Below, piece by piece: positions 5,179 to 27,779 of a stretch of DNA of 64,000 nucleotides (the first letter of the stretch is position 1; each line of letters starts with the position of its first letter). Made by a program: the position numbers and the translations under genes. The stretch is from Fibrobacter sp. UWB16. Lineage in GTDB: Bacteria; Fibrobacterota; Fibrobacteria; Fibrobacterales; Fibrobacteraceae. The stretch is taken from assembly GCF_900215325.1 (NCBI RefSeq), contig NZ_OCMS01000003.1:186001-250000 (forward strand), given 5' to 3'. Under the pieces are notes generated by a model, which worked only from the letters and a program-made list of their open reading frames with translations, did not search any database and was not told the DNA's origin.

Positions 5179-5224
5179 AAATTAGACCTTTTAAGTGCGC
5201 CTCGAATTAAGTATCTTTGTGCAC

Positions 5225-9222: not shown

Positions 9223-10109
9223 TGACGTGCTTTTACGATCGCCTTGAACAGCGTATTGCGAAGTGCGGTAACCCGGTGTGCATGGGCATGGACCCTGTGC
9301 TCAAGCTCATTCCGCTCGAAGGCACTCCCGAAGACCGCATCAAGCGCTTCTATTCCGACATCTTGGAATGCTGCCTCAAGCGTAACGTGCAGCCGGCTGT
9401 CGTAAAGCCGAACAGCGCTTATTACGAATGCGTGAGCGTGCAGTCGATGCTCGTTTTGCAGCAGCTCATTGCCGATTACAGAAGTGCTGGCATCCCGGTT
9501 ATCTTGGATGCAAAGCGCGGTGACATTGGCAAGTCCAGTGCCGCCTACGCCAACGCCGCTTACGATGTTTACCGTGCAGACGCCGTGACCGTCTCTCCGT
9601 GGATGGGTGCCGATTCCGTCGGTCCGTTCATTCGCGAAGATAGCGAAAACGGTGCCTACGTGCTCCTCCGCACAAGCAACAAGGGCGCTCACGACTTCCA
9701 GGATTTGCCTGTTACTCGCAGTGACGATCCGCGCGACGTTGCCGAAGCGTTCTATTCCGTAGCGGACAAGATTATGGAATGGGATGCTGACAAGGGATAC
9801 CTTGGTGCCGTTGTCGGTGCAACCCACCCGGAAGAACTTGAGAAGATTACGGCTTACACCGTTGCTCACAAACACGAAATCCCGTTCCTCATTCCGGGCG
9901 TGTCCATTCCGGGCGTGCCGGGCGGTCAGGGCGGCGATGCAAAGACCGTGCTCAACGCTATCGCAAACGGTGGCGGCAAGCGCAAGTTCCATGTGCTCAA
10001 CTCGAGCAGTGGACTCAACTTTGCATGGCAGCGTAACGATACGCCGGCAAACTATGCGAACGATTGCGTCGATGCACTCGAAAAACTCGCAGAGGCATGC
10101 TTGGTTTAG
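9222..10109 (+). CDS. pyrF: Orotidine 5'-phosphate decarboxylase
   Basis: Last step of UMP synthesis: decarboxylates OMP. The 295-residue length and the motif ILDAKRGDIGKSSAAYANAAYD mark it as the longer subfamily 2 enzyme; DAKRGDIG holds the catalytic Lys/Asp. Other conserved parts are GMDPVLKLIP, VKPNSAYYE and the phosphate-binding IPGVPGGQGGD. The ATG overlaps the preceding stop by one base and has a good ribosome site (CAGGAGG). It ends the isoprenoid/RNA-modification/pyrimidine operon; a palindromic repeat follows. Confidence 0.95.
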   Translation: MTCFYDRLEQRIAKCGNPVCMGMDPVLKLIPLEGTPEDRIKRFYSDILECCLKRNVQPAVVKPNSAYYECVSVQSMLVLQQLIADYRSAGIPVILDAKRGDIGKSSAAYANAAYDVYRADAVTVSPWMGADSVGPFIREDSENGAYVLLRTSNKGAHDFQDLPVTRSDDPRDVAEAFYSVADKIMEWDADKGYLGAVVGATHPEELEKITAYTVAHKHEIPFLIPGVSIPGVPGGQGGDAKTVLNAIANGGGKRKFHVLNSSSGLNFAWQRNDTPANYANDCVDALEKLAEACLV

Positions 10110-10118
10110 TTCTTCTAA

Positions 10119-10220
10119 GACGTCATCCTGACCCTGGAGCGTAGCGATAGGGGAAGGATCCAGGGCTTTACTTGATGGATTCTTCGACTACGTGCTTCGC
10201 ACTTCGCTCAGAATGACGTG
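10119..10220. repeat. Dispersed palindromic intergenic repeat (CGTCATCCTGA family)
   Basis: Begins GACGTCATCCTGA and ends TCAGAATGACGTG, so the two ends are inverted copies of each other. The inside carries GCGTAGCGATAGGGGAAGGATCCAG. It fills the gap between pyrF and the next gene. Further copies or partial copies lie at 11065, 13871, 19733 and 27996. Confidence 0.75.
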
Positions 10221-10225
10221 ATGAA

Positions 10226-11077
10226 ATGAATATGCGTTATATCCTTAGCTTCATAGTTGCCGTTGCGGTGATCGTGGTTGCGTTCCATTACGCAAAGCCG
10301 TTGCCTGGCACGAACTTTGACGAATCTTTCTTGCCGAAGGCTTCGTCTGTTCGCTATGTAGCTGCAGGGCATGACGCCTCGGTAGCGGGGCTCTTCTGGA
10401 TCAAGGGCCTCACCGAACTCGGTGAAAGCTACCTCACCGGCAAGGAATATGCGTATCTCGGTCATGTCGCCGAACTCTCGACGAGCCTGGATTCACTATT
10501 CTTCACGCCGTATTATTTTGTCGGTGGCGTGACACCCGTAGATGCTCCCGATACTTCGGACTTCTCGGTACTCCGCCGTGCGACTCGCGTTTATCCTGAA
10601 AACTGGCGCCTTTCGCTTTACTTTGCACTCCGCCTCGCTCGTGGCCCGTACCCCAACAGGACCGAAGCCGCGAACGTGATGCGCAAGTATTTCGATAGCC
10701 CGGATACAACGATTCCCGATCACATCCGCACGATTTACCGCAGCTTTGAACTCGACTCCATGCAGACCGAGACTGCGCTTGAAACCATCCTGAATGACGT
10801 GATGCAACCGCGTTTCAAGAAGTTCCGTGCAAGCTTTTATGTGAAAATCCTCAAGCTCTTCGGTTACAAGGGCTTGATTAGCGACTACAATAAGGACGAC
10901 AATTATCAGAAAGTCAAGTTCCTTGTCGATGGCATGACCGAAGGCCGCATCCCGCCGGTTGTCGTTTACAACCGCCTCCTTGCCATGAAAAAGGTCGAAG
11001 AACCCGTTGCAGATTCTACTGCCGCCGATACGGCTAAAGTAAGTGTTGCGGATTCTACAGCATCTACGTCACCCTGA
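10226..11077 (+). CDS. Membrane-anchored TPR-like helical protein, unknown function
   Basis: 283 residues. One N-terminal membrane segment (residues 4-20, ILSFIVAVAVIVVAF) then a helical periplasmic part. The segment YVAAGHDASVAGLFWIKGLTELGE resembles the opening of a poorly characterised family of anchored TPR-like proteins with the form 'GYD.LLADLLWL', which I recall from deltaproteobacteria. The C-terminal 35 residues are Ala/Asp/Ser/Thr-rich and low complexity. The stop codon TGA is part of the dispersed repeat (ACG TCA CCC TGA), so the last residues are supplied by that repeat. Start ATG 10226 follows GATGAAATGAAT just outside the preceding repeat. No firm function. Confidence 0.65.
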   Translation: MNMRYILSFIVAVAVIVVAFHYAKPLPGTNFDESFLPKASSVRYVAAGHDASVAGLFWIKGLTELGESYLTGKEYAYLGHVAELSTSLDSLFFTPYYFVGGVTPVDAPDTSDFSVLRRATRVYPENWRLSLYFALRLARGPYPNRTEAANVMRKYFDSPDTTIPDHIRTIYRSFELDSMQTETALETILNDVMQPRFKKFRASFYVKILKLFGYKGLISDYNKDDNYQKVKFLVDGMTEGRIPPVVVYNRLLAMKKVEEPVADSTAADTAKVSVADSTASTSP

Positions 11078-11183
11078 GCAAAGCGAAGGGCCCAGTTAAG
11101 TCTCGTAAAAATGCCTCTGGATCCATCAACCCTTACGGGTTTCTGGATGACGAGTTCATGAATTACCAGTTTTGTGGATGACG
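11065..11183. repeat. Dispersed palindromic repeat, degenerate copy
   Basis: CGTCACCCTGAGCAAAGCGAAGGGCCCAG opens the element and GTGGATGACGTG closes it, with GGATCCATC...GGATGACG inside. It lies between two convergent genes and supplies the stop codon of the plus-strand gene ending at 11077. Confidence 0.65.
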
Positions 11184-14414: not shown

Positions 14415-15581
14415 ATGCAAAAAGGCTCGAACGAGATTGATAATTTTCTGACGCCCGATGATACAAAAGTGATGAAGGGGATTGCAATTGTCTGCATGCT
14501 CCTGCATCATCTTTGGTTTTTCCCGAACCGTATTCCGGGTGGGGGCGTTGTTGGCATTTTTACGATGTTCAATATGCCATTGACTATTTATTTGGGAATC
14601 TTTGGCAAAATATGCGTCCCGATGTTTTTCTTCTTTGGCGGTTATGGAGTCTATAAGAGCTCCTACGGAAAACCCTACGATATCGTTGGGCGCCTTAAAA
14701 AACTTTATTTTGCGTACTGGAAAGTCTTTCTTGTTTTCGTTCCGATTGGTTTCCTGTTCTTTTCTGCACAGGTCCCGTATTGCGCTGATCCTTTTATTTA
14801 TTCGCGCTTTGAAATTTTCTCGTTAAGGGAATTAGTTTCGAACTTCCTTGGGTTTGCATCGACATATAACAGGGAATGGTGGTTCCTCATAAGTTACGCA
14901 TTCGCCTTGGTGACATTCCCGCTTGTCAGGGCCGTTATTGACCGCTATTCGGCAAGAATCAATTTGTTCATTATCGTTATTGTGTCGCTTTTGTTTGCGC
15001 ATGTTTTTCCTGGACTTAAATCGGTGCCTTCGCTTGGCGTTCTCGGAAATAGCCACATGTACCTCCGCTTTTTCTGCCAGATTGCGCCGTATGCGGCTTG
15101 TTTCTGGATGGGTGCAATCGTCGCACGTAATGGGCTCTTTGACCGTTTGCACAATTCTGCCAAGCAGCATGGACTTTTGAACCCTCTGGCCGATATTGCC
15201 ATCTGGTGCATGATTATCGTCATGCGTCAAAATGAAATTGGCGATATTTTTGATGTGTTCTTCATCCCGGTTTTAACCGTTGTTGCTATGGACTTCTTGA
15301 GCCATGTCAGGCTCTTGAAAAAAGGATTTTGGTATCTCGGACGCCAGAGTACATTTATGTGGCTTATCCACCCGTTCTTCTGTTATTACTTTGGTGTCCC
15401 GGCGATGATTGTCGCATATCCGCGATATGCAATCCCGTCGCTGCTCGTGCTTATTGTAATGACGTACTTTGCGTCGGTGCTTTTGGAATATTTCTGGAAG
15501 GGTTTTGGTTTTGTTTATCGGAAAGCGAATTCCGTGAATATTCATTTTAAACATTTTGGAGCTTCTGGTGAAAAACGATAA
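14415..15581 (+). CDS. Acyltransferase 3 family membrane protein
   Basis: 388 residues with about ten membrane segments. The N-terminal KVMKGIAIVCMLLHHLWFF matches the acyltransferase-3 opening with its conserved His, and FFFFGGYGVYKS follows. The family transfers acetyl or other acyl groups onto surface sugars, O-antigen, peptidoglycan or antibiotics. The end overlaps the start of the next gene by 14 bases. With the two glycosyltransferases downstream it forms an envelope-glycan modification operon; the acceptor is unknown. Confidence 0.85.
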   Translation: MQKGSNEIDNFLTPDDTKVMKGIAIVCMLLHHLWFFPNRIPGGGVVGIFTMFNMPLTIYLGIFGKICVPMFFFFGGYGVYKSSYGKPYDIVGRLKKLYFAYWKVFLVFVPIGFLFFSAQVPYCADPFIYSRFEIFSLRELVSNFLGFASTYNREWWFLISYAFALVTFPLVRAVIDRYSARINLFIIVIVSLLFAHVFPGLKSVPSLGVLGNSHMYLRFFCQIAPYAACFWMGAIVARNGLFDRLHNSAKQHGLLNPLADIAIWCMIIVMRQNEIGDIFDVFFIPVLTVVAMDFLSHVRLLKKGFWYLGRQSTFMWLIHPFFCYYFGVPAMIVAYPRYAIPSLLVLIVMTYFASVLLEYFWKGFGFVYRKANSVNIHFKHFGASGEKR

Positions 15582-17304
15582 GTCTATCCAGTATTTTTTG
15601 ATTTGGGGCGTCATCTGCCTGCTTGCAAACTTGTTCTGTACAAATGCTGCTGCATTTGGTGGAGATCAAAATTATTGGGCGGATTGGGTCAAGCAATTGG
15701 CGAATAATGGATTTGAACGTTTTAATGGCAACTATCCTCCGCTTTATGTTTTTTGGCTTTGGATTGTGGCGCAAGTCCATAATCTTGCGAATATCCCGAT
15801 AGAAAAGGGGACGCTCCTCAAGTTCTTCTGCTTGTGGCCGGTTTACTTTGGCCATGTGGCGCTTGTCGATTTTGCAAGCCGCCTGGTGGCGCGCTTCAAG
15901 TTGCCGAAGTATTCTGCTCATTTTGTGCTTGCGTTTGTGGCCTTGAACCCGGCGCTTTTGCTCGATGGTCCGATTTGGGGGCAGGTCGATTTGTTCCCCT
16001 GCATCTTTGGCATTGCTGCACTTTACTGCATTAACTTCCCTGGAAAAATCAAGTACGCTTCGATGTTCTTTGCGCTTGCGCTTTTGGCGAAGTTCCAGAT
16101 GATTTTGCTTTTGCCAATTTTCGGTGGCATCTTCCTCCGTCGCTATAAGCAGTCCTGGCGCGGGCTCCCGCTCATGGCGGTTGCAATTGTGCTTGTATTC
16201 TTGCCGTTCATGGTTGCAGGGAACCTCTCGGGACTCCTCACTCATGCTTACCTCAACACGACGGAACAGTACCCGTTCTCGACTTACAATGCTGCGAACA
16301 CCTGGATGTTCTTTGTGGGCAATACGAGCCGTGACGTGAATCCGCTTTTCGGGCTTTCGCCGGATGGCATTGGATTCTTGCTTTCTCCGTCTTGGCTTGG
16401 TAAGATTCTGTTCGTGATTATCTCTGCTTACATTTTGAAGTGCGCTCTCTTTGCCAAAACACTCCGCCGCACGTTTGAACTTGCGACTTGGGAAGCTTTT
16501 GCGTTCTTCCTTGTATTGCCGGGCATGCATGAACGTTATTTGATTTACGCCGTTCCGTTTGCTTGCGTGTGGATGGTGCTTGAAACGAAGAAGGCCTGGA
16601 TTTGGTCGCTTCTGGTGACGGCCATTTGCGCCATGAACATTTCAATGGTGAATGGCTTCAAGGGTGCCGACTTATGGGTTCCGGTTTCTGGACTTGCGCT
16701 CCTCATCTTCATTGCAGGCGTTGTGAACAACTTTGCCCCGCGTGCGTTCCCTGCGCTGATTGAAAAACTTGCACGTATCCCGTTCCCGCGCTTTACGCCG
16801 TATGTGGTGCTTGCCTTGTTCCTTTTCCCGATGCTCATCACCGAAATTATCGGGCTCATGCCGGTGAATGTAGAACTCCAGTCGAACCAGTTCTATCTCA
16901 CGGATTTGGCGATCGATCATTACACGCAACAATACGGTAGACCTCGTGTAAACCGTGCGGTCGATGGAGCAACGCTTACGGTTCGTGGACAGCAGTATAA
17001 GAATGGTATTGGTACGCATGCCGCTTCTGAAATCTTTTTCAAAATGCCTGCCGATGCTGATTCGCTTGAATTTGTCGTGGGCATTGATGATGAAACGGGT
17101 GGCGGTGGTTCTGTGCGCTTTATCGTGGCGACTCCCGAAGAAACACTTTGGAAAAGCGATGTCGTTTTTGGCAACAAAAAGCCGCAAGTCGGTAAAGTCT
17201 ATATCGGTGGTCAGCAGACGATTATCCTCAAGGCAGATGCCGATGGCGACAACGCTTACGACCATGCCGACTGGCTGAACGTCATCGTGACCAAGAGGAA
17301 GTAA
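15568..17304 (+). CDS. GT-C type glycosyltransferase with C-terminal NPCBM domain
   Basis: About 578 residues. The first ~430 are a multi-pass integral membrane region of the polyprenol-phosphate-sugar-dependent GT-C kind, with FGGDQNYWADWV in the first large loop (acidic catalytic residues expected there) and GPIWGQVDLFP, LLAKFQMILLLP and LPGMHERYLIYAVPF further on. The last ~120 residues (NRAVDGATLTVRGQQYKNGIGTHA..., VVGIDDETGGGGSVRFIV, DHADWLNVIV) are an NPCBM carbohydrate-binding module. GTG 15568 is preferred over TTG 15556 because TTGGAG lies just before it. Ends one base into the next ATG. Attachment of a binding module to the transferase itself suggests recognition of the acceptor glycan; this is inference. 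Confidence 0.8.
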   Translation: MKNDKSIQYFLIWGVICLLANLFCTNAAAFGGDQNYWADWVKQLANNGFERFNGNYPPLYVFWLWIVAQVHNLANIPIEKGTLLKFFCLWPVYFGHVALVDFASRLVARFKLPKYSAHFVLAFVALNPALLLDGPIWGQVDLFPCIFGIAALYCINFPGKIKYASMFFALALLAKFQMILLLPIFGGIFLRRYKQSWRGLPLMAVAIVLVFLPFMVAGNLSGLLTHAYLNTTEQYPFSTYNAANTWMFFVGNTSRDVNPLFGLSPDGIGFLLSPSWLGKILFVIISAYILKCALFAKTLRRTFELATWEAFAFFLVLPGMHERYLIYAVPFACVWMVLETKKAWIWSLLVTAICAMNISMVNGFKGADLWVPVSGLALLIFIAGVVNNFAPRAFPALIEKLARIPFPRFTPYVVLALFLFPMLITEIIGLMPVNVELQSNQFYLTDLAIDHYTQQYGRPRVNRAVDGATLTVRGQQYKNGIGTHAASEIFFKMPADADSLEFVVGIDDETGGGGSVRFIVATPEETLWKSDVVFGNKKPQVGKVYIGGQQTIILKADADGDNAYDHADWLNVIVTKRK

Positions 17305-18878
17305 TGGACAAGGTTTTTGCTTGGCTGAAATCGCGAACGGCTGCGCAATTTGTCTTTGCGGTAATTATGCTGTTGGGGACGTTTGCTCGTGTCTACATGT
17401 TCGGCTCTGTGCCGGGCGATATCAACCAGGACGAAGCTTTTGCTGGATATAACGCCTACACGCTTTTGCACCACGCTGCAGATTCTTACGGCTACCGCTT
17501 GCCGGTTTACTTGACTGCCTGGGGTTCCGGCATGAACGCTCTCGAATCGTATTTGATGATTCCGTTTGTAGCGCTCTTCGGGATGCATGTCTGGGTAATC
17601 CGCTTGCCGATGCTTCTGGTGGGGCTTTTGTCGCTTGCGGCGGTTTATTTCTTGGTGCGCCGATTCTCTAGTGAACGCATTGCCTTGGGTGCAACGCTTC
17701 TGCTTGCGATTTCTCCGTGGCATGTGATGCTTTCGCGCTGGGCTCTTGAATCGAACTTGGCGCCGGGATTTGTGCTGTTCGGACTTTTCTTCTTTGTAAA
17801 AGGTCTTGAAAAGCCGAAGTTCTTGATTGCCTCGGCTGCATTTTACGGACTCTCGCTTTATGCATATGCGACCATCTGGGTGGCTGTCCCGTTCATCATC
17901 TTGTTGAACGTACTTTATGCTCTTTGGACAAAGTCTATCCACAATAATCGTTACACTTGGATTTCGCTTGGCGTACTTGCTGCACTTGCGCTCCCGCTTA
18001 TGCTCTTTATGCTCGTGAACAAGGGCGTTATCAATGAAATCCGCTTGCCGTTTATCAGCATTCCGAAGCTTGTTTATTTCAGGGCGAGTGAAATTTCGTT
18101 CCAGGAGATTCCCGAAAATTTCATGAACCTCTGGAATATTTTGAAGCGTCAGTCTGATGGGCTCCCGTGGAATTGCATTCGCAATTTTGGGCTTTTCTAC
18201 CCGGTGACGCTTGCGTTTTTCTTTGTCGGCCTTGTCGAAAACATTTGGCAGACGGTGCGTGATGTAAAGTCGCGCAAGCTTGGGCTCCCGTTCTTTATGC
18301 TTGCCTGGCTGCTCGCCGCTTTTACGATTGGAATTTTAATCAGCGTCAATGTCAATCGCGTGAACTTGATTTTTATCCCGATTATAATTATGGCGGCGCA
18401 AGGGATTATTCTCGCGTTTAGCTATATCCACCCGAAGTTGATTTACGTTCCGCTGGTGGCGTACCTCTTGAGCTTTGCCAATTTTGAACGTGAATATTTT
18501 ACGGTATATAAGGACCAGATTGCAAATCCGTTCTGCGAAGGCATTGGCGATGCTATGGAATTTGCACAGTCGCAGTCGAAATCGGGCGGTAAAATTTATG
18601 TGGACCCGAACGTGAGCTACCCGCGAGTGCTTTTTTATGGCAAGGTGGACTTGAATTCTTACCTTTCGACGGTTCGCTACACGAATTTCCCGAGCGCATT
18701 CCTCTATGTGCACGAATTTGACCGCTATGTTTTCACATTTAATTTGGATAATGCCGATACGCAAGCGGTTTATCTTATGGAAAACAAGGATTCTAGACTT
18801 TCTTGGTTTGAACAGCGTGGCTTTTCGGTCCGTAATTTTGGAAAATATATTGTAGCATACCCCGCAAAATTACTCTGA
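17304..18878 (+). CDS. GT39/PMT-like membrane glycosyltransferase
   Basis: 524 residues, about 11-13 membrane segments. The N-terminal loop PGDINQDEAFAGYNAYTLL contains the acidic pair expected in the first periplasmic loop of GT39/ArnT-like enzymes, which move a sugar from a polyprenol carrier to protein or lipid. ATG overlaps the upstream stop by one base, so it is co-translated with the NPCBM-bearing transferase and the acyltransferase. The C-terminal ~130 residues form a soluble periplasmic part (YVDPNVSYPRVLFYGKVDLNSYLSTVRY). Donor and acceptor cannot be told. Confidence 0.8.
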   Translation: MDKVFAWLKSRTAAQFVFAVIMLLGTFARVYMFGSVPGDINQDEAFAGYNAYTLLHHAADSYGYRLPVYLTAWGSGMNALESYLMIPFVALFGMHVWVIRLPMLLVGLLSLAAVYFLVRRFSSERIALGATLLLAISPWHVMLSRWALESNLAPGFVLFGLFFFVKGLEKPKFLIASAAFYGLSLYAYATIWVAVPFIILLNVLYALWTKSIHNNRYTWISLGVLAALALPLMLFMLVNKGVINEIRLPFISIPKLVYFRASEISFQEIPENFMNLWNILKRQSDGLPWNCIRNFGLFYPVTLAFFFVGLVENIWQTVRDVKSRKLGLPFFMLAWLLAAFTIGILISVNVNRVNLIFIPIIIMAAQGIILAFSYIHPKLIYVPLVAYLLSFANFEREYFTVYKDQIANPFCEGIGDAMEFAQSQSKSGGKIYVDPNVSYPRVLFYGKVDLNSYLSTVRYTNFPSAFLYVHEFDRYVFTFNLDNADTQAVYLMENKDSRLSWFEQRGFSVRNFGKYIVAYPAKLL

Positions 18879-18929
18879 GAAGTCGAAATTTGATATATTG
18901 GTGTTCGAAAAAGAATAAGAAGTGTGAAT

Positions 18930-19679
18930 ATGCGAATTTCTACTGTATTTAAGATTTGTTCTTTGACGATGCTTATGGCTGTGGCGACGTTTGCCCGGCC
19001 GATTAACGATGGCAATAAGCTATTTGCCGCTGGCGATTATGCCGGTGCGCTTGAAAAGTACATGAAGGCCCGCGAAGCGGAGCCTGCAAATCCGCTTTTG
19101 TTCTACAATATTGGAACGTGCCAGTACAAGCTCGGCAATTTTGAAGAAGCCAAGAAGGAACTCGAAAGTGCTGTGCGCATGCCGGATAAGAATATGGCGG
19201 CAAAGGCGGCGTACAATTTGGCGAATACGCATTTCCGCGTGGGCGAAAAGGCTCAAGAACCGAGTGCCCGCATTGCGGCTTGGCGTGAATCGGTCGCTTA
19301 TCTGAAAAAGGCAATTGACCTCGATAACGATTTTGAAAACGCGAAGAAGAACGTCGAAATCGTCCAGCGTAAGCTCAAGGAAGAACTCGACAAGCAAAAA
19401 GAAAACAAGGATCAAAACCAGAATCAGAACGACCAGAAACAACCTCCGCTGAGTGATAATGCAAAGCAGGTCTTGGCTCGTGCACTCCAGCTTTGCAAGG
19501 ATGGCAAGTATGCCGAAGGCAAGCAGATGCTCGAGAACCTGATTGCCGAAGACGAGACCGCAAGCCAGTTGAGCGGCCACGTGCAGCGCATTGACGACGT
19601 CATCGAAATCAAGGCCGGTCGCAAGCCCAAGACTAAGATTGACGCCAGCAACACCGACAACGACCTGGAGGTGATCTAA
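18930..19679 (+). CDS. Exported TPR protein, Bat (aerotolerance) operon type
   Basis: About 249 residues. Signal peptide (CSLTMLMAVATFA, cleavage near 21), then TPR repeats (GNKLFAAGDYAGALEKYMKAREAEPANPLLFYNIGTCQYKLGNFEEAKKELE...), then an Asn/Gln/Lys tract (KENKDQNQNQNDQKQ), then a last helical pair. This order resembles the TPR proteins of Bacteroidetes Bat operons. ATG 18930 is chosen because AAGAAG lies seven bases upstream; GTG 18924 is the alternative. Its end overlaps the next gene and includes the strong ribosome site GGAGGTGATC for it. The usual BatA/BatB (von Willebrand A) genes are not in the window, so the name is by resemblance. Confidence 0.7.
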   Translation: MRISTVFKICSLTMLMAVATFARPINDGNKLFAAGDYAGALEKYMKAREAEPANPLLFYNIGTCQYKLGNFEEAKKELESAVRMPDKNMAAKAAYNLANTHFRVGEKAQEPSARIAAWRESVAYLKKAIDLDNDFENAKKNVEIVQRKLKEELDKQKENKDQNQNQNDQKQPPLSDNAKQVLARALQLCKDGKYAEGKQMLENLIAEDETASQLSGHVQRIDDVIEIKAGRKPKTKIDASNTDNDLEVI

Positions 19680-20473
19680 TGTTTTTAATTCGGAATTCGG
19701 AAATCGGAATTAGGAATTGCGATTCTCTCTCTCGTCATCCTGATGCTCCAATGCGTCATCCTGAGCGTAGCGAAGGATCCAGTTACGTTGTAGCGTTGGG
19801 CTTTGTATTGCTTTTTGCGGTGGTTGCTTTCGCGGCTCCGAAGTCGGCGTCTGCCTACTATGGCGATGCGGCGTTCCAGTACATTGAAAACCGCTTGCCC
19901 ACTGCAGAAATTACTTGCAACGAAGGCTTGCAATACTACCCGAACGATCAGAAATTACAGATGCTCCTCGACCGCATTCACGAAGCGAAGGACGAGCAAA
20001 AGAACGAAAATAAGAAGAACGATCCTAAAAACGACCAGAATCAAGACCAGAATAATCAGGATCAAAACCAGGATCAGAATCAGGACAAGCAAAACCAAGA
20101 CCAGAATAAAGATCAGCAGAACCAGGATCAGCAAAATCAGAACCAGAATGGCGACCAGAGTTCTTCTAGCGCCCAGAATGACCAGAATCAGGATCAACAG
20201 AATCAAGGTCAGAACGGTCAGTCTAGCAGCAGCCAGGGTGGCGATAGTTCCGACAGCAATGGTGGTGCCGGAGAGCAACCGCAACAGCCAGAACAGTCCG
20301 AGGGCAATTCCAGCGACAGTAACGGCGGTGAACCGGAACAGCAGCCGCTTCAACCTGGTGAAATGACTCCTGAAGAAGCTGCCCAGCTCCTCAAGGACTT
20401 TGACGAACAGAACGGCGAACGCAAGCCCTGGAAACCCGTCCGCGGCCAAGTCCGTCCGGCTAAGGACTGGTAG
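19679..20473 (+). CDS. BatC-like Gln/Asn/Asp-rich protein with repeat-encoded N-terminus
   Basis: 264 residues. The end, EMTPEEAAQLLKDFDEQNGE...AKDW, matches the C-terminal pattern of BatC-like proteins. The middle (~residues 105-225) is an extreme NQDQNQDQ/SSSS low-complexity tract. A hydrophobic export signal (ALGFVLLFAVVAFAAPKSASA) lies at about residues 39-59, but it is preceded by residues that are simply the translated dispersed repeat (RHPDAPMRHPERSEGSS). The ATG at 19679 is well supported by a perfect-looking Shine-Dalgarno in the end of the previous gene, so the repeat appears to have landed just inside the start of an older gene and lengthened its signal sequence. Whether export still works is open. 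Confidence 0.65.
   Translation: MFLIRNSEIGIRNCDSLSRHPDAPMRHPERSEGSSYVVALGFVLLFAVVAFAAPKSASAYYGDAAFQYIENRLPTAEITCNEGLQYYPNDQKLQMLLDRIHEAKDEQKNENKKNDPKNDQNQDQNNQDQNQDQNQDKQNQDQNKDQQNQDQQNQNQNGDQSSSSAQNDQNQDQQNQGQNGQSSSSQGGDSSDSNGGAGEQPQQPEQSEGNSSDSNGGEPEQQPLQPGEMTPEEAAQLLKDFDEQNGERKPWKPVRGQVRPAKDW
19733..19782. repeat. Dispersed palindromic repeat within the BatC-like gene
   Basis: Two tandem heads, CGTCATCCTGATG and CGTCATCCTGAGCGTAGCG, followed by AAGGATCCAG. Flanked 5' by a stretch of repeated CGGAATT units (19691-19720). All of it is inside the reading frame. Confidence 0.75.
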
Positions 20474-20524
20474 ATTAATCCAACCAACTTTGCATCATCT
20501 TGTCATGTCCGCCGCAAACATGTC

Positions 20525-20555
20525 ATGCCCGCCTTGCGCGGGCATCTCCTTTTTT
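20525..20555 (+). terminator. Rho-independent terminator
   Basis: ATGCCCGC (20525-20532) pairs with GCGGGCAT (20538-20545) around CTTGC, followed by CTCCTTTTTT. It ends the Bat-like pair. The stem sequence belongs to a second dispersed repeat type (CATGCCCGC...GCGGGCATG), also seen near 29944. The rest of the 20474-20677 gap holds no gene that I can see. Confidence 0.8.
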
Positions 20556-20677
20556 AAACAACCTTTATTAGCGATTTTACAACTCAATTAAATAAATCTT
20601 CACTTTGTACATGTTTTTCTTGTGTAATGCTTAAAAAAATTGTACATTAGTGAAGACAATTTAATAAAGAGGATCTT

Positions 20678-21571
20678 ATGAAAAAGGTTTTGACCGTTCT
20701 TCCTTTGGCCGCCCTTGCTTTGGTTGGCTGTCAGTCGTCATCAGGTGATAGCGTAACTGCTCCAGATGTACAGCCGCTGCCCCAGAATTATCCGACCGAC
20801 TATATAATCTCCGAATTGGGCACGTATAACTATGCTGCTGACGGTACCTTGGAAATCACTAAAGGTACTTGCACGGACAGGGCTAATGAATACGTCTGGG
20901 AAAAGGTGACTAAAACCGGTTCATTGAAGGATGCTGGTAATAATTCCGCTGAAATGGATTTGGGCGATGGTGCTGGCAAGAATACTTATGCTTTTGTGGC
21001 CGCTTATGGAGAGCCGTTCCCAAGTGGCTCGTACTACATGACGTCAACACTTAATCAGAAACTCATTAGAGGCGTCATTCTTGATGATTCGTATTACGAT
21101 GATGTCGTGTTCGTTAATACGGATTGCCTTTTTGAGAATTTTGGCGAAATGCAAGAAACGCTTGCTCTGATTGCCGGTGTAGAAAAGTCTGAAATCAATA
21201 TGAGCTGCAAAGTGCTCAGCATTCAAGGTCTTGAGATGGAGTACAAATCCCATAGGTCAATGGGCGTTGAATATACGCTTTCTTATGCAGGCAAGGTTTG
21301 CAATGTCAAGCATGATTTCCGTTATGCTAATGTTGAAACGGATTGCGAAAGAGCGTTTAAAGATTATCAGAAAGATTATGAAAGTGGAGAAACAACTGAA
21401 TTCTTCAACTTCGATTTTTATGATCAGGATATTAACACAGATGCTTGCGACGAAGTTCTCGAAGATTTCCACAATGCAACGGGTCTCGCAAAGTCTGCTC
21501 CTGGTGTTAGCAAAAAGCAAGTTAAGGATATTCTCCGCGCAATTGGCAAGCGCCTCCGCCACGGCAAGTAA
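20678..21571 (+). CDS. Lipoprotein, unknown function
   Basis: 297 residues with lipobox ALVGC (mature Cys at residue 18) and a short Ser/Pro linker. Eight Cys lie in the mature part, probably forming disulfides. I recognise no domain. Preceded by an AT-rich gap and ribosome site AGAGGA; followed directly by a clear terminator, so it is likely monocistronic. Confidence 0.75.
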   Translation: MKKVLTVLPLAALALVGCQSSSGDSVTAPDVQPLPQNYPTDYIISELGTYNYAADGTLEITKGTCTDRANEYVWEKVTKTGSLKDAGNNSAEMDLGDGAGKNTYAFVAAYGEPFPSGSYYMTSTLNQKLIRGVILDDSYYDDVVFVNTDCLFENFGEMQETLALIAGVEKSEINMSCKVLSIQGLEMEYKSHRSMGVEYTLSYAGKVCNVKHDFRYANVETDCERAFKDYQKDYESGETTEFFNFDFYDQDINTDACDEVLEDFHNATGLAKSAPGVSKKQVKDILRAIGKRLRHGK

Positions 21572-21598
21572 TTAACGGTATTCATAATAGGTACAGTG

Positions 21599-21625
21599 CA
21601 CCCTGCAAATGCGGGGTGTTTTTTT
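21599..21625 (+). terminator. Rho-independent terminator
   Basis: CACCCTGC (21599-21606) pairs with GCGGGGTG (21611-21618), with one G-T wobble, followed by TTTTTTT. It ends the lipoprotein gene at 20678. Confidence 0.8.
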
Positions 21626-21708
21626 GTGCAGTGCATCCCGGCTTTGGGCGATCGCCTTCCCTTTGAAATTTTATTGCATTACGCTTATAATTTTGATATC
21701 TTAATATT

Positions 21709-24700
21709 ATGATTATGCGGAAGGTTATCTTTATTTCTCTTTTGGTTCTGTCGTTTGTCTCATTTGCGGTGGCGACTCCTGTTGCGCGTCCATCGACGAA
21801 CGGTAAACTTCATGTCGTGGGTACGGAGCTTCACGACGAGCATGGGAATGTCGTCGTTCTCAAGGGCGCAAGCACCCACGGTCTCACATGGTTTCCGCAG
21901 TTCGTGAACAACGGATTGTTCAAACAGCTCAGCACAGAGTGGAATACGAACCTTATTCGCCTTGCCATGTATTCCAAGGATTATGTAGAGGGCAATCGCA
22001 AAAAGAATTTGGAAATTTTGCGCAAGGGTATTGAATATGCCATTGCAAACGATATGTACGTCTTGGTGGACTGGCATGTTCTAGAAGATCAGAATCCTAA
22101 TGTGTATCTTGCCGAGGCGATTTCTTTCTTTAACGAAATGGCTAGGGAATATGCAAACGTCCCGAACGTGATTTTTGAAATTTGCAATGAGCCCAATGGC
22201 GACTGCACTTGGGAGGATATCAAGGAATATGCGCATGTCGTTATCCCGGTGATTCGCAGGCACAAACCCGATGCCTTGATTGTCATTGGTACGCCAAACT
22301 ATGCTCGTGAAATCCAGTACCCGGCAGAGGATCCGGTTCCGTTTGAAAACGTGATGTATTCGTTCCATTTTTATGCAACTTCGCATACTTATGTCTTTCG
22401 TGCAAAACTTCGTAATGTCGTGAAACAAGGAACGCCGATATTTATTACGGAAAGTGGTCTTTGCGAAGAATCGGGTGATGGAAAAATTGATTTTGAAAAT
22501 GTAAGGATTTGGTATAGCTTGATTGACTCCTTGCATATAAGCTATACCATTTGGAATCTTTCGAATAAAGAAGAAGAATCCTCGATGATCCGTGATGATT
22601 CCCGTGCTGTGGAATATTTGACGGATGGTGATTTGACAATTTCGGGACGTTTTGCAAAGGCGCTGTTCCAAGGGACGCCGATTGATAAGATTACGCTTGA
22701 ATATAGTACGATTGAAAATTTCAAGATTCTTGCGCGTTCTAAGCCTCACAAAGTATGGCTTATGTTTGCGGGGCCTCTGTTTATTTTCCTCATTCTGTGT
22801 CTTGCTGTGGAAAAGTATAGAAAACGTTCTAAAAACAAAGTAATACGCTCTTACGATGATTTGCTGAAGTACAGTACGGACGAAGCTGCGAAAAAGTTTA
22901 ATAAGAGTCCGCTCAAGGTGATTCTTGGCGATATGTTTCTCTTGTTTAGTTCGCTTTGCACGCTCGTTTATCTTTGTTGGCGTGTAACGTGCTCGATTCC
23001 GTATGCTTATGGCTGGATAGCTGTGGTGGGGAGTTTTCTCCTGCTCGTTGTAGAGGTTCTCGGCTTTTTTGAATCATTTGTCCATTACGGTGGTTTGCTC
23101 AAGTTGCGCGATCATCCGCTCCCGAAAATTGCGGATGAAGAATTCCCGGATGTCGATATTTTCATTTCGACGTACAACGAGCCTGTGGAACTTTTGCGCA
23201 AGACGATTATCGGCTGCAAGTACATGGAATATCCGGACAAGTCCAAAGTTCATATTTGCCTGTGTGATGACAACCGTCGCCCAGAAATGCGCGCGCTTGC
23301 CGAAGAACTCGGCGTGATTTATTTTGATCGCCCGAATAACGAGGGCGCGAAAGCAGGGAACTTGAATGCAGCTCTTGCTCGGACGCGTTCGCCGTATGTA
23401 GTGACGTTCGATGCCGACATGGTTCCGCAGCGTAAGTTCTTGCTCAAGACGATCCCGTACTTTGTCGATGCCGATCGCATCAATGCGAGATTGCCAGAAG
23501 AACGCCGCCGTTCGTTAGGTTTTATCCAGACGCCGCAAAGCTTTTATACGCCTGACGTGTTTCAGCACAATCTTTATGCCGAACGCGTTGTGCCAAATGA
23601 ACAGGATTATTTCTATGATGTGATTGAGGCTGCAAAAACTTCGACGAACAGCGTAATTTACGGCGGCTCGAATACGGTTATATCTCGCAAGGCGCTCGAA
23701 GATATTGGTGGATTCTATACAAAGTCTATTACGGAAGACTTTGCGACGGGCATGCTGATTGAATCGGCGGGTTATGTGAGCCTTGGACTTTCTGAACCGC
23801 TTGCGTCGGGCGTTGCGCCATCGACGTTCCAGGACCATGTGCAGCAGCGCACCCGCTGGGGGCGCGGCGTGATTGCCACTGCAAAGCAGCTCAAGTTCTT
23901 GCGCAACCGCAAATTGGATGTGTCGCAAAAGATGAGCTACTTGAACTCTGTGCTTTACTGGTTCTCGCCACTCAAGAACTTGATTTACCTGATTTCGCCG
24001 TTGATGTTTGCTGTGTTCTGCATTCCGATTTTCAAGTGTACGCTTGTGGACCTTGCTCTATTCTGGTTGCCGATGCACATCTTGCAAATTCTGGCGCTCC
24101 GTGTCACGAGCCAAGGCAAAATTTCGGCGCAGTGGAGCGGTATTTACGAGACTTCTGTGATGCCGTTCCTTTTGATGCCTGTCGTGAAGGAGGTGTTTGG
24201 CATAACGCTTTCCAAGTTTAAGGTGACGAAAAAAGAAAAGGCAAGTTTCCGTAGAGTTGTTGACAAGCGAAGCCTTGTGCCGTTTGTTGTTCTTTTGGTG
24301 CTTACGTTTGCGGGAATTGTTCGCATGACTTACATGATGGTGGCGTTTAAATACATCGGAATTTTGGCGGTGCTGTTCTGGCTTGTGCGCAATTCGTATT
24401 ACCTCACGATGTGCTTGTTCCTTGGCTTTGGCCGCGATTCCGATGGTGAAAATGTGAAGGTTTTTGCCGCTGAACTTGTTACGCTTCACAAATGCGATGG
24501 GATGGATGTTGATGGCGTGACGACCAGGCTTACTGAGCATTCGGTGGATGTCTTTACCGATGAAGTGGATGTGCTTTATTTAGGCGAGCAAGTGGAACTT
24601 GGAATTTCTACGAATGGCTATGACTTGAATGTCAAGGGGACTGTTGTTTCAATTCGTCATTCGTGCAACCCGGATGTGCCGAGCGTCTATACCGTTGAAA

Positions 24701-24843
24701 TCCTCGATTTCGCAGGCCAGAAAGATGCGTATGTGCAAATGCTCTATGACCTCACCCCGACTTTGCCGCAGCGATTGCGCTTTGGCGACGAGTACATTCG
24801 CAACCTGTGGAAAAATCTGGGACATCGAATCGTCAGAGTTTAA
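21709..24843 (+). CDS. GH5 cellulase - GT2 cellulose-synthase-like - PilZ-like fusion
   Basis: One 1,044-residue chain. Residues 1-23 are a signal/anchor. Residues ~30-325 are a GH5 glycosidase: LKGASTHGLTWFPQF, VDWHVL, VIFEICNEPNG (acid/base Glu) and IFITESGLCEESG (nucleophile Glu). A membrane segment near 345-365 leads to further segments near 405-450. Residues ~475-740 are a family-2 processive glycosyltransferase of BcsA type: IFISTYNEPVE, CLCDDNRRPEM, TFDADMVPQ (DxD), SITEDFATGM (TED) and QQRTRWGRG (QxxRW). More membrane segments follow (~750-910), and the last ~120 residues resemble a PilZ-type barrel (EQVELGISTNGYDLNVKGTVVSIRH) but lack RxxxR. So polymer synthase and hydrolase are joined; the GH5 part should face the periplasm. 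The product is likely a beta-1,4-glucan but this is inferred. A GGDEF gene follows. Confidence 0.88.
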   Translation: MIMRKVIFISLLVLSFVSFAVATPVARPSTNGKLHVVGTELHDEHGNVVVLKGASTHGLTWFPQFVNNGLFKQLSTEWNTNLIRLAMYSKDYVEGNRKKNLEILRKGIEYAIANDMYVLVDWHVLEDQNPNVYLAEAISFFNEMAREYANVPNVIFEICNEPNGDCTWEDIKEYAHVVIPVIRRHKPDALIVIGTPNYAREIQYPAEDPVPFENVMYSFHFYATSHTYVFRAKLRNVVKQGTPIFITESGLCEESGDGKIDFENVRIWYSLIDSLHISYTIWNLSNKEEESSMIRDDSRAVEYLTDGDLTISGRFAKALFQGTPIDKITLEYSTIENFKILARSKPHKVWLMFAGPLFIFLILCLAVEKYRKRSKNKVIRSYDDLLKYSTDEAAKKFNKSPLKVILGDMFLLFSSLCTLVYLCWRVTCSIPYAYGWIAVVGSFLLLVVEVLGFFESFVHYGGLLKLRDHPLPKIADEEFPDVDIFISTYNEPVELLRKTIIGCKYMEYPDKSKVHICLCDDNRRPEMRALAEELGVIYFDRPNNEGAKAGNLNAALARTRSPYVVTFDADMVPQRKFLLKTIPYFVDADRINARLPEERRRSLGFIQTPQSFYTPDVFQHNLYAERVVPNEQDYFYDVIEAAKTSTNSVIYGGSNTVISRKALEDIGGFYTKSITEDFATGMLIESAGYVSLGLSEPLASGVAPSTFQDHVQQRTRWGRGVIATAKQLKFLRNRKLDVSQKMSYLNSVLYWFSPLKNLIYLISPLMFAVFCIPIFKCTLVDLALFWLPMHILQILALRVTSQGKISAQWSGIYETSVMPFLLMPVVKEVFGITLSKFKVTKKEKASFRRVVDKRSLVPFVVLLVLTFAGIVRMTYMMVAFKYIGILAVLFWLVRNSYYLTMCLFLGFGRDSDGENVKVFAAELVTLHKCDGMDVDGVTTRLTEHSVDVFTDEVDVLYLGEQVELGISTNGYDLNVKGTVVSIRHSCNPDVPSVYTVEILDFAGQKDAYVQMLYDLTPTLPQRLRFGDEYIRNLWKNLGHRIVRV

Positions 24844-24968
24844 AAATACCGAAATTGTGACCAAAATTGCGTTTTTTTGGGGCTTTTACCCCCCGATGAG
24901 GCTGTATATTCTATTTAAAAAGATATATATTAATAAGACCTGCCTAAAAAATCGTGGGGAGTTGAAGT

Positions 24969-26342
24969 ATGAATTTTGATGTTCTGTTGTCGCACTATAG
25001 AGCGAAGGCCTGCGTTGTTTCCGTCGAATTTTTCCCAGACGGAACGTATGGGAATATCCGTGTCGTTGCGGGCAACAAGGCGCACTGTGACGACATGGCG
25101 GCGCTGAACCACCCGTTTGAGCCCGGCTGCCCTTACGAAGCCTGCTTCCCCAAGAACCCGAATTTCGAAGATCATTGCTTCCGTTGCATTCGCGATGGCA
25201 AGCCTCTCCATGCATACGTGGACCTTTACATGATGGGTCTTTGGCTTAACATGTTCCTGATGCCGTTGGATTCGGACCAGGAAAATATCGGTTATTGCAT
25301 TTATTGCTACGATGTAGCGCCTAAGGCGGATTCTTCGGCGATGGCGGACCTTTCTGCAGATACCGCTGCCGATGTTCTCAAGGCATGCATTAAGTTGCGC
25401 GGGTCGCAAAATATTAGACAGGCGTTTCAGGAAGTCGTTGAAGATATCGGTGCTATTTGTGGATCGGACCATTGCTGTGTCTTGCTGACGGATGACGAAA
25501 AACATGACTGCACGACTTTTGCAGAATTTCTCCGCGAAGGTTCGGGCCTGTATCCGATGTCTCGTTACATCCAGGGTTTTTATGAGATTGCCCAAACATG
25601 GCCAGATACGCTTGCCGGTAGCACCTGCATTATTATAAAAGATGAACACGACATGGAAAAGCTGCAGGAGCAAAATCCGGTTTGGAAGGCGTCTCTGGAC
25701 CAGGCTGGGATAAAGACTGTTGTGTTATATCCGCTTCGCCATGGCGGTGAACTTCTCGGTTACATGTGGGCATTGAACTTCAATGTCGAAAACGTTTTGA
25801 AGATTAAGGAAACGCTTGAACTCACAACGTTCTTCCTCGCTTCTGAAATTTCGAACTATCTGCTCTTGGATAAATTAAAAGTCCTTAGCACGATTGATAC
25901 GCTTACGAGTGTTAGAAACCGTAACGAGATGAACAACCGCGTGGACCGAATTGTTGCTGGAAACGAACCTGTGCCGCAGGGTGTGCTTTTTGCGGACTTG
26001 AACGGCTTAAAGCGCGTTAATGACGAACAAGGTCATGCTGCGGGCGATAAGATGTTGTGTGCCGCTGCTTCAATTTTGCAGAGCGTATTCCAAGATGGTG
26101 TGGTGTACCGTGCTGGCGGTGATGAATTCATGATTCTCGTGAACGAGATTAGTGAAGATGAAGTGCAGGACCGTGTGGCCCGTGTGCACTTCTTGTCGGG
26201 CAAGACGGAAAATGTCCGCTTCTCGATTGGCGTGTGCTATGGCAAGAAGGATATTCGCAAGGCCATGCGCCTCGCCGATGAACGCATGTATGCCTTCAAG
26301 AACGGCTACTACGAAGCTCATCCGGAATTGAAATATCGATAG
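24969..26342 (+). CDS. GGDEF-domain protein with PAS-like and GAF-like N-terminus
   Basis: 457 residues, no membrane segment, so cytoplasmic. An N-terminal PAS-like region (~1-115) contains four to five Cys (CPYEACFPKNPNFEDHCFRCIRDGK), which could bind metal or sense redox. Residues ~135-300 resemble a GAF domain, and the GGDEF domain ends the protein: LFADLNGLKRVNDEQGHAAGD, YRAGGDEFMIL. The catalytic GGDEF is intact; the RxxD inhibitory I-site before it is absent (the residues there are FQDG). Ribosome site GGGGAG upstream of ATG 24969. Directly downstream of the cellulose-synthase-like fusion, so it probably supplies a c-di-GMP signal for it. Confidence 0.88.
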   Translation: MNFDVLLSHYRAKACVVSVEFFPDGTYGNIRVVAGNKAHCDDMAALNHPFEPGCPYEACFPKNPNFEDHCFRCIRDGKPLHAYVDLYMMGLWLNMFLMPLDSDQENIGYCIYCYDVAPKADSSAMADLSADTAADVLKACIKLRGSQNIRQAFQEVVEDIGAICGSDHCCVLLTDDEKHDCTTFAEFLREGSGLYPMSRYIQGFYEIAQTWPDTLAGSTCIIIKDEHDMEKLQEQNPVWKASLDQAGIKTVVLYPLRHGGELLGYMWALNFNVENVLKIKETLELTTFFLASEISNYLLLDKLKVLSTIDTLTSVRNRNEMNNRVDRIVAGNEPVPQGVLFADLNGLKRVNDEQGHAAGDKMLCAAASILQSVFQDGVVYRAGGDEFMILVNEISEDEVQDRVARVHFLSGKTENVRFSIGVCYGKKDIRKAMRLADERMYAFKNGYYEAHPELKYR

Positions 26343-26378
26343 AGTGATTTTTTGTGCAGTAATTTCTATATTTGACGT

Positions 26379-27779
26379 ATGAGATTGCCGCGCGAAACAC
26401 GTACTTATGTTGCTATCGACTTAAAGTCGTTTTTTGCGTCTGTGGAGTGCGTGCTCCGCGGACTTGATCCGCTCACGACGAATCTTGTGGTGGCGGATGC
26501 GAGCCGTACCGAAAAGACGATTTGCCTTGCAGTGAGCCCAAGTCTCAAAGCTTATGGGATTCCTGGGCGTGCACGTTTGTTTGAAGTTATCCAGAAGGTG
26601 CGCGAAGTCAAACGCCAAACGGGCAAGGATGTTGAGTATATTGTAGCTCCTCCGCAAATGGCAAAGTACGTGGAATATTCTACCCGTGTTTTTAACGTTT
26701 ATCTGAAATACGTGAGCGCAGACGATATTCATGTTTATTCTATTGACGAATGCTTTATCGACTTGACGCATTACCTCTCGATGTACAAGAAGTCGGCGCG
26801 GGAACTTGCAAAAGACATGATCCGCGATGTACTTGAAACGACGGGCATCACGGCAACGGCGGGCATCGGGACGAACCTTTACCTTTGCAAAATTGCAATG
26901 GACGTGATGGCAAAGCACGTGGCTCCTGATGCGGATGGCGTTCGCATTGCTGAACTCGACGAGATGACGTATCGCAAGGAACTTTGGGGCCATCGGCCGA
27001 TTACGAGTTTTTGGCAATTGGGGCGCGGCATTGCGGAGCGCCTTGCACATTGCTACTTGAATAACGGGCGTGGCATTTTTACGATGGGCGACCTTGCGCG
27101 TGCAAGCGTCAAGCATCCCGATGCGCTTTACAAGATGTTTGGCGTGAATGCTGAAATTCTGATTGACCATGCGTGGGGCTATGAACCGTGTGGCATCGCC
27201 GAAATCAAGCAGTACAAATCCAAGACGCATAGCATTGGTGGTGGGCAAGTTTTAAGTTGTGCATACGACTGTGCCAAGGCTAAAATCGTCATCCGCGAAA
27301 TGGTAGATACGCTCGCACTCGACCTTGTCGAGAAAGGCCTGGTTACGAACGGCCTTACGCTCCATGTGGGTTATGACCGCGAAAATGTGGACAAGGGAAT
27401 TTATCACGGCGAAACGGTTATCGATAATTATGGGCGTGAAATCCCGAAACCAGCACATGGGACGGCTCCGCTCTTGAACTACACTTCGTCGGCATCGACA
27501 ATTGCAGAAGCGGTAATGAAACTTGCGGACCGCATCATGAATCCGTCACTTACGGTGAAGCGCTTGAACCTCACGGCGAATAATGTTTTGGAAGCAACGC
27601 AAGAGAGTTACGATCTCTTCACGGACGTGAAAAAGATTGAACGTGAAAAGAAGATGATGCAGGCGCAAATCGCCATCAAAAAGCGCTTTGGCAAGAACGC
27701 CATTTTCAAGGGAATGGATATGCAAGAGGGCGCAACAACGCGAGAGCGCAACCAGCAAATTGGAGGGCATAAGGCATGA
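26379..27779 (+). CDS. Y-family DNA polymerase (UvrX/ImpB-MucB-SamB type)
   Basis: 466 residues. Translesion polymerase signatures: AIDLKSFFASVECVLRG (first catalytic Asp and steric-gate region), YSIDECFIDLT (Asp-Glu pair) and TATAGIGTNLYLCKIAMD (helix-hairpin region). The form with LVVADASRTEKTICLAVSPSLK is the UvrX-like branch common in Firmicutes rather than DinB. The last four bases overlap the start of a YolD-like gene, the arrangement known for UvrX/YolD-type pairs. Probably part of a DNA-damage response; no LexA-type site was recognised in the 36-base gap upstream. Confidence 0.9.
   Translation: MRLPRETRTYVAIDLKSFFASVECVLRGLDPLTTNLVVADASRTEKTICLAVSPSLKAYGIPGRARLFEVIQKVREVKRQTGKDVEYIVAPPQMAKYVEYSTRVFNVYLKYVSADDIHVYSIDECFIDLTHYLSMYKKSARELAKDMIRDVLETTGITATAGIGTNLYLCKIAMDVMAKHVAPDADGVRIAELDEMTYRKELWGHRPITSFWQLGRGIAERLAHCYLNNGRGIFTMGDLARASVKHPDALYKMFGVNAEILIDHAWGYEPCGIAEIKQYKSKTHSIGGGQVLSCAYDCAKAKIVIREMVDTLALDLVEKGLVTNGLTLHVGYDRENVDKGIYHGETVIDNYGREIPKPAHGTAPLLNYTSSASTIAEAVMKLADRIMNPSLTVKRLNLTANNVLEATQESYDLFTDVKKIEREKKMMQAQIAIKKRFGKNAIFKGMDMQEGATTRERNQQIGGHKA

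Follow-up and report, generated by a model that had tools for sequence, protein, structure and literature searches.

A GH5 endoglucanase domain fused to a BcsA-like glucan synthase in Fibrobacter and other gut bacteria: a putative self-contained synthase-hydrolase

Among the hydrolases associated with cellulose synthesis, BcsZ, CcsZ and plant KORRIGAN are thought to release or edit the polymer. In ccs-type operons the GH5 hydrolase is encoded by a separate gene (PMC7710045), and CcsZ belongs to subfamily GH5_25 (PMC9693552). In the pseudomonad 'Orphan' proteins a GH17 domain and a GT2 domain share one chain, for which glucan cleavage and cyclisation, and a cyclic beta-1,3-glucan product, have been proposed (PMC10237404). 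The Gram-positive RiGT2 of Romboutsia ilealis is a BcsA-like (1,3;1,4)-beta-glucan synthase with PilZ and FxVTxK elements that was independent of cyclic diguanylate (c-di-GMP) in assay (PMC10374906). Here we describe a protein of Fibrobacter sp. UWB16 in which a GH5 cellulase domain is fused ahead of a BcsA-type GT2 synthase. Its gene lies within a 64,000-nucleotide stretch, hereafter the window (assembly GCF_900215325.1, contig NZ_OCMS01000003.1, positions 186,001-250,000, forward strand). We propose that the fusion is a self-contained beta-1,4-glucan synthase-hydrolase that would cut its chain as it leaves the membrane, with short glucans as product, a reading to which sequence and structural model together lend an even chance.

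The gene is open from ATG to stop and encodes 1044 amino acids that comprise, from N to C terminus, a signal peptide, a GH5 domain, a transmembrane helix, a BcsA-type GT2 domain with its channel, and a PilZ-fold tail. The features of the protein are as follows, with conservation given as the fraction of 80 aligned rows of full or near-full fusion relatives.

21709..24843, + strand: GH5-GT2 fusion protein, whole open reading frame
21709..21780, + strand: signal peptide, residues 1-24 (hydrophobic segment 6-24)
21784..22683, + strand: GH5 endoglucanase domain, GH5_2 type, residues 26-325, predicted outside the cytoplasmic membrane (Pfam Cellulase; 3pzu match)
22189..22191, + strand: E161, GH5 acid/base in the NEP motif (80/80)
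22450..22452, + strand: E248, GH5 nucleophile (80/80)
22744..22821, + strand: transmembrane helix 346-371 linking GH5 to the synthase, followed by a positively charged loop (hydropathy, model)
22918..23082, + strand: transmembrane helices 404-428 and 436-458 ahead of the GT domain (hydropathy, model)
23083..23973, + strand: GT2 catalytic domain, residues 459-755, predicted cytoplasmic (Pfam, NCBIfam, structure match)
23269..23271, + strand: D521, UDP-coordinating Asp (80/80)
23410..23418, + strand: DxD motif, DAD 568-570 (both Asp 80/80)
23731..23739, + strand: TED 675-677, catalytic base motif (80/80)
23845..23859, + strand: QxxRW motif, QRTRW 713-717 (80/80)
23977..24099, + strand: transmembrane helices within 757-797 (hydropathy, model)
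24217..24234, + strand: FxVTxK gating loop of cellulose synthases, FKVTKK 837-842 (F, V, T and K 80/80)
24274..24417, + strand: transmembrane helices within 856-903 (hydropathy, model)
24427..24840, + strand: PilZ-fold C-terminal domain lacking c-di-GMP motifs, with conserved GRDxDxE and TEH (alignment, fold comparison)

Architecture, conservation, topology, loss of c-di-GMP motifs, origin, spread and operon context were assessed by sequence, structural model and phylogeny. A wide scan of one genome per species, covering approximately 85,000 species genomes, identified 308 relatives of the fusion. The best 80 of these make up the fusion loci considered below; they were retrieved with a common search pattern, such that distant forms are under-sampled.

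The Pfam Cellulase model matched residues 43-287 of the fusion (2.7e-55). Residues E161, E248, H123, H220, Y222 and W282 of the GH5 domain were invariant, and R84 was present in 79/80 rows, the sole exception being a gapped row. The best matches in the PDB, by sequence and by structure, were GH5_2-type endoglucanases (root mean square deviation (rmsd) 1.1-1.6), which marks the domain as a probable endoglucanase of this type. GH5_2 enzymes cut beta-1,4-glucan. No further GH family was detected in the fusion with Pfam at E 0.001, GH17 (PF00332) included.

In the synthase half, Pfam GT2 models matched between residues 480 and 770, and the best-scoring NCBIfam model was TIGR03030 (CelA), which aligned with residues 410-948 at 357 bits. 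The GT2 motifs, transmembrane channel and gating loop are those of BcsA/CcsA-type processive glucan synthases. When the window gene was compared with close relatives, the ratio of nonsynonymous to synonymous substitution rates (dN/dS) was approximately 0.07-0.10 in GH5 and GT2 alike; given this low ratio and the invariant catalytic residues, both activities look to be under selection.

Hydropathy analysis gave a signal peptide at residues 6-24 and a helix at 346-371; a further two helices precede the GT domain and two helix pairs follow it, with positive charge concentrated in the loops of the predicted inner side. Together, the signal peptide, linker helix and charge pattern predict the GH5 domain on the exit side, such that it should lie outside the cytoplasmic membrane and the GT2 domain and tail inside. 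An AlphaFold2 model of the window protein built from 71 fusion sequences had a mean predicted local distance difference test (pLDDT) score of 87.8 and a predicted template modelling (pTM) score of 0.78. Residues 27-322 of the model matched a Bacillus subtilis endoglucanase (Z 46, rmsd 1.1), and residues ~341-1044 matched BcsA of Escherichia coli and Rhodobacter sphaeroides (Z 30-35 over 573-643 residues). A preliminary description of this DNA had reported a GH5 domain with both catalytic glutamates ahead of a BcsA-like GT2 domain with DxD, TED and QxxRW, and had supposed that fusion would place one hydrolase per synthase at the exit of the polymer channel. The fusion itself is confirmed by Pfam, the invariant residues and the structure matches, and the single polypeptide and hydropathy topology agree with the supposed placement; the wider interpretation was partly supported, as set out below.

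The same description had called the C terminus PilZ-like, which holds for its fold but not for its motifs. Pfam found no PilZ match in the tail of the window protein, 13/71 fusion relatives gave weak matches only, and all six unfused relatives tested (6/6) passed the Pfam cut-off. Folded alone, the tail formed a PilZ barrel whose top Foldseek match was the PilZ domain of CesA (4i86), and in a second structure aligner nearly all of the first ~30 rows were PilZ proteins. A profile search of the tail against PDB sequences returned nothing convincing, and PilZ was recognised by fold comparison only. In-register RxxxR and [DN]xSxxG motifs were found in 0/80 fusions and in 8/8 unfused relatives, the fusion tails carrying GRDxDxE and TEH in their place. 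That the tail has lost c-di-GMP binding is the natural inference from this alignment and, with both motifs gone, ordinary c-di-GMP control would not be expected.

A search of Fibrobacterota genomes, including 80 of the window's genus, found the fusion in 23/80 Fibrobacter genomes (21 full length, two split over contigs or frames) and in no Fibrobacterota genome outside this genus. All of the best 80 of the 308 loci are fusions (Bacillota 62, Fibrobacterota 12, Actinomycetota 4, Spirochaetota 2), and nearly all are full length, with L049 cut by a contig end. The architecture is thus not peculiar to this bacterium, and an assembly join or chimeric contig, the first objection raised against the fusion, is ruled out by the full-length copies within the genus and in three other phyla. 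A second objection, that such fusions are already described as common, found no backing: unannotated genomes contain many such fusions, but we found no published description of a GH5-GT2 fusion in a search that fell short of most subscription papers and of database annotation.

The hosts are mostly gut bacteria, with records largely from rumen or other gut collections. In even samples the fusion was rare, occurring in ~4/397 genomes of the Butyrivibrio family and 3/245 of the Treponema family, and a sample of 391 genomes from the class around Butyrivibrio had it in the centre genome alone. Each of 14 host genomes had a single fusion, and a search at E 1e-25 found no other BcsA-like gene in them. 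No viral contig encoded a relative of the fusion, and no plasmid record gave 80% cover of it. Two irregular copies were also observed. Genome G060 has, besides an intact copy elsewhere, a second, broken copy at L136 (G060:C2:92000-102000, - strand, 4397-5623 and 2724-2861), whose pieces, residues 634-1042 and 590-635, are out of order, and at L046 (Treponema JC4, 8001-11134) a frame change near residue 98, from either sequencing error or decay, divides the fusion.

The origin of the fusion was examined with FastTree trees of GT2 and GH5 domains, each including 25 fusions and each with some weak branches. The GT2 domains of the fusions formed one clade (100) beside the unfused clostridial synthases L176, L177 and L187, L178 being the next branch out. 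The GH5 domains of the same 25 fusions likewise formed one clade (99), among stand-alone clostridial enzymes and away from the host's own GH5 genes. As each part forms a single clade, the phylogeny indicates that the fusion arose once and that the copies in Bacillota, Actinomycetota, Spirochaetota and Fibrobacterota are one family.

Both L176 (MBOAT - AlgX-like - GT2 - GH5) and L178 (GH5 - GT2 - MBOAT) are operons of ccs type. The ccs GH5 of L178 shares 26% identity with the fusion GH5 over part of its length, and that of L176 gave no match. With its GT2 domain beside ccs-type synthases and its GH5 domain unlike ccs GH5, the fusion would so unite a GT2 descended from ccs with a GH5 of unrelated origin. 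Host cellulases and ccs GH5 were also considered as sources of the GH5 domain and rejected: the GH5 tree gives them no support, the L176 GH5 being too distant to enter it. The Fibrobacter and rumen Treponema copies are 69-70% identical and cluster in a single clade, itself grouped with four Bacillota fusions, a pattern that suggests transfer between phyla. Separately, synonymous divergence was uneven along the window gene, the linker and tail being nearest to L007 and the GH5 part nearer to L008, as if parts of the gene had been exchanged between species.

The surroundings of the gene indicate that it was inserted, or lost, as a single unit. In G067, window segments 18829-21623 and 24862-27578 align by blastn just 88 bases apart. 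The features of this region are as follows.

21624..24861, + strand: segment missing in G067 with its flanks aligned, a single-gene insertion (or loss) unit (blastn)
21598..21619, + strand: terminator-like hairpin and T run between the lipoprotein gene and the fusion, shared with fusion-less G067 and suggestive only
21663..21691, + strand: promoter-like TTGAAA-N17-TATAAT directly 5' of the open reading frame (11/12 consensus positions)
24969..26342, + strand: GAF-GGDEF diguanylate cyclase gene, a neighbour outside the system that adjoins the lipoprotein gene without the fusion in other genomes

Genome G060, whose flanks are ~93% identical, is without 20473-24841, yet carries elsewhere a fusion that is 67% identical. 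The exact TTGAAA-N17-TATAAT pattern occurs once in the window and is absent from shuffles, such that the unit carries its own putative promoter, whereas terminator-like sites in the region are no commoner than in shuffles. In G067, G128, G111 and G077 the lipoprotein and GGDEF genes are direct neighbours, separated by ~160-260 bases with no fusion between them, and the fusion sits elsewhere in G102, G116, G120 and G131, the Fibrobacter sites differing from each other. An operon with the GGDEF gene is ruled out by this ancestral lipoprotein-GGDEF pair and by the other sites of the fusion.

Among the 80 fusion loci, no neighbour occupied a fixed place and no separate GH5 or O-acetylation genes were conserved; the recurring families were ordinary transporters, STAS and cyclase genes. 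On this gene order the fusion gene stands alone, without a conserved operon. No match to PF03170 (BcsB) or PF05420 (BcsC) was found in the host genome, both being detected in an E. coli control. Several neighbours merit mention in their own right. The cyclase gene at 24969-26342 has an intact GGDEF motif and belongs to a family of GAF-GGDEF proteins that recurs in the genus, often in tandem. The lipoprotein-like gene at 20678-21571 encodes 297 amino acids without a Pfam match and has relatives in 17/80 genomes of the genus. A 264-residue protein at 19679-20473, likewise without a Pfam match, has an extended low-complexity region rich in Asp, Gln and Asn (DQNQDQ), and at 15556-17304 a multi-helix membrane protein ends in an NPCBM carbohydrate-binding domain, an odd pairing.

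Activity, linkage, product length and the purpose of the fusion are what we infer from these features. In the proposed synthase-hydrolase, the cytoplasmic GT2 domain would polymerise glucose from UDP-glucose into a beta-1,4- (or mainly beta-1,4-) linked glucan, which would cross the membrane in a channel built from the synthase's own helices. At the outer face, the GH5 domain on its tether of ~20 residues would then cut the emerging chain and release short chains or cello-oligosaccharides in place of a long fibre. In Fibrobacter and Treponema these would enter the periplasm, whereas Bacillota and Actinomycetota would release them outside the cell. Trimming during synthesis, as the preliminary description had envisaged, is therefore plausible on sequence and model. 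The tail, derived from PilZ, would no longer be a canonical c-di-GMP switch, although it probably continues to support the gating loop; output would thus track expression and UDP-glucose supply. As no known outer-membrane exporter was detected in the diderm host, short products would be likelier than fibres.

Glucan-making had been regarded as unexpected in a cellulose degrader. It is not wholly so, because F. succinogenes makes and releases cellodextrins, a release credited to cellodextrin phosphorylase (PMC3079729, PMC4432691), beside which the fusion is a candidate second route. Several points weigh against the proposal of short beta-1,4-glucans. The TIGR03030 score lies below the curated cut-off of 699 for this cellulose synthase catalytic subunit model, an unrecognised outer-membrane exporter could exist, RiGT2, a similar Gram-positive GT2, makes a mixed-linkage glucan (PMC10374906), and the known cellodextrin release already has its attribution to the phosphorylase (PMC3079729, PMC4432691).

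The alternative that survives best, though we consider it on the unlikely side, is an exopolysaccharide (biofilm or adhesion) cellulose synthase whose fused GH5 merely releases or edits a long secreted glucan. In its favour, cellulose operons encode GH5 or GH8 hydrolases as proteins of their own (PMC7710045, PMC5070118), the unfused GT2s closest to the fusion belong to ccs-type operons that include O-acetylation genes, and the host genus Butyrivibrio makes exopolysaccharide (PMC2914790). However, the fusions keep no ccs partners, neither BcsC nor BcsB was found in the diderm host, and the tail has lost the c-di-GMP motifs that biofilm synthases usually carry. It is improbable that the product is instead a (1,3;1,4)-beta-glucan. 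RiGT2 offers the model for this, as a Gram-positive BcsA-like GT2 with PilZ and FxVTxK that needed no c-di-GMP in assay (PMC10374906), and GH5_2 enzymes could cut such a glucan too; the GT2 tree, however, puts the fusions beside ccs-type synthases. More improbable still is a transglycosylase role for GH5, in which it would close the chain or rearrange it to give a periplasmic glucan that is cyclic or branched. The GH5 family is a retaining one, and the layout is that of the 'Orphan' proteins, for which cleavage and cyclisation have been proposed (PMC10237404), but sequence and fold both mark the domain as a standard GH5_2 cellulase and many hosts are Gram-positive, with no periplasm enclosed by an outer membrane. 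Finally, a membrane-anchored, fibre-degrading cellulase with a vestigial GT2 serving only as anchor, to which the degradative character of GH5_2 and the many fibre degraders among the gut hosts might lead, is rejected as barely credible given the invariant GT2 motifs and gating loop (80/80) and a dN/dS as low in GT2 as in GH5.

Going beyond the proposed synthase-hydrolase, we tentatively suggest, while doubting it more than that proposal, that the fusion is a one-protein cello-oligosaccharide exporter, driven by UDP-glucose and free of c-di-GMP control, that has spread among gut phyla because releasing or storing sugars outside the membrane pays. If this were true, Fibrobacter would have a route of cellodextrin release other than reversed phosphorolysis. 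In any case, with a one-to-one fusion intact in four phyla, the reason that cellulose-making systems require a cellulase can be tested within one protein. The fusion also provides a synthase seemingly freed of the c-di-GMP switch yet PilZ-folded, and a candidate gene for the release of glucan or cellodextrins by fibre degraders of the rumen.

The fusion can be compared with several described systems. It resembles BcsA in its GT2 motifs, helices, FxVTxK loop and PilZ fold, but shares only ~24% identity with it, is without RxxxR and [DN]xSxxG, and differs from Bcs systems in having a fused hydrolase that is GH5 rather than GH8, in a host without detected BcsB or BcsC. The ccs system (CcsA GT2-PilZ, CcsZ GH5_25 and O-acetylation genes) is nearer: the closest unfused GT2s, L176 and L177, are 46% identical to the fusion by blastp and lie in operons with MBOAT and AlgX-like genes, and L176 and L178 (40%) also have a GH5 gene. 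Unlike ccs, the fusion has its GH5 in the same chain and of another subfamily, no operon, and no c-di-GMP motifs. RiGT2 is similar in its BcsA-like GT2, PilZ domain, FxVTxK and apparent independence of c-di-GMP, but keeps both PilZ motifs and has no reported GH domain. With the GH5_2 endoglucanases (B. subtilis 3pzt/3pzu and B. agaradhaerens Cel5A) the GH5 domain shares ~40% identity, an rmsd of 1.1-1.4 over ~295 residues and the same catalytic residues; those enzymes are free and secreted, whereas this one is tethered to a synthase. The GH17-GT2 proteins have the same succession of signal peptide, outer hydrolase, transmembrane helices, cytoplasmic GT2 and further transmembrane helices, and likewise lack RxxxR, but combine GH17 with a proposed cyclic beta-1,3-glucan where the fusion combines a GH5_2-type cellulase with a probable beta-1,4-glucan. 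The preliminary description had held that the hydrolase is separate in known cellulose systems, which is true of ccs-type operons (PMC7710045), L176 and L178 among them. GH17-GT2 fusions (PMC10237404) are the clear architectural precedent, and the fusion of a hydrolase to a GT2 synthase is, as such, already known.

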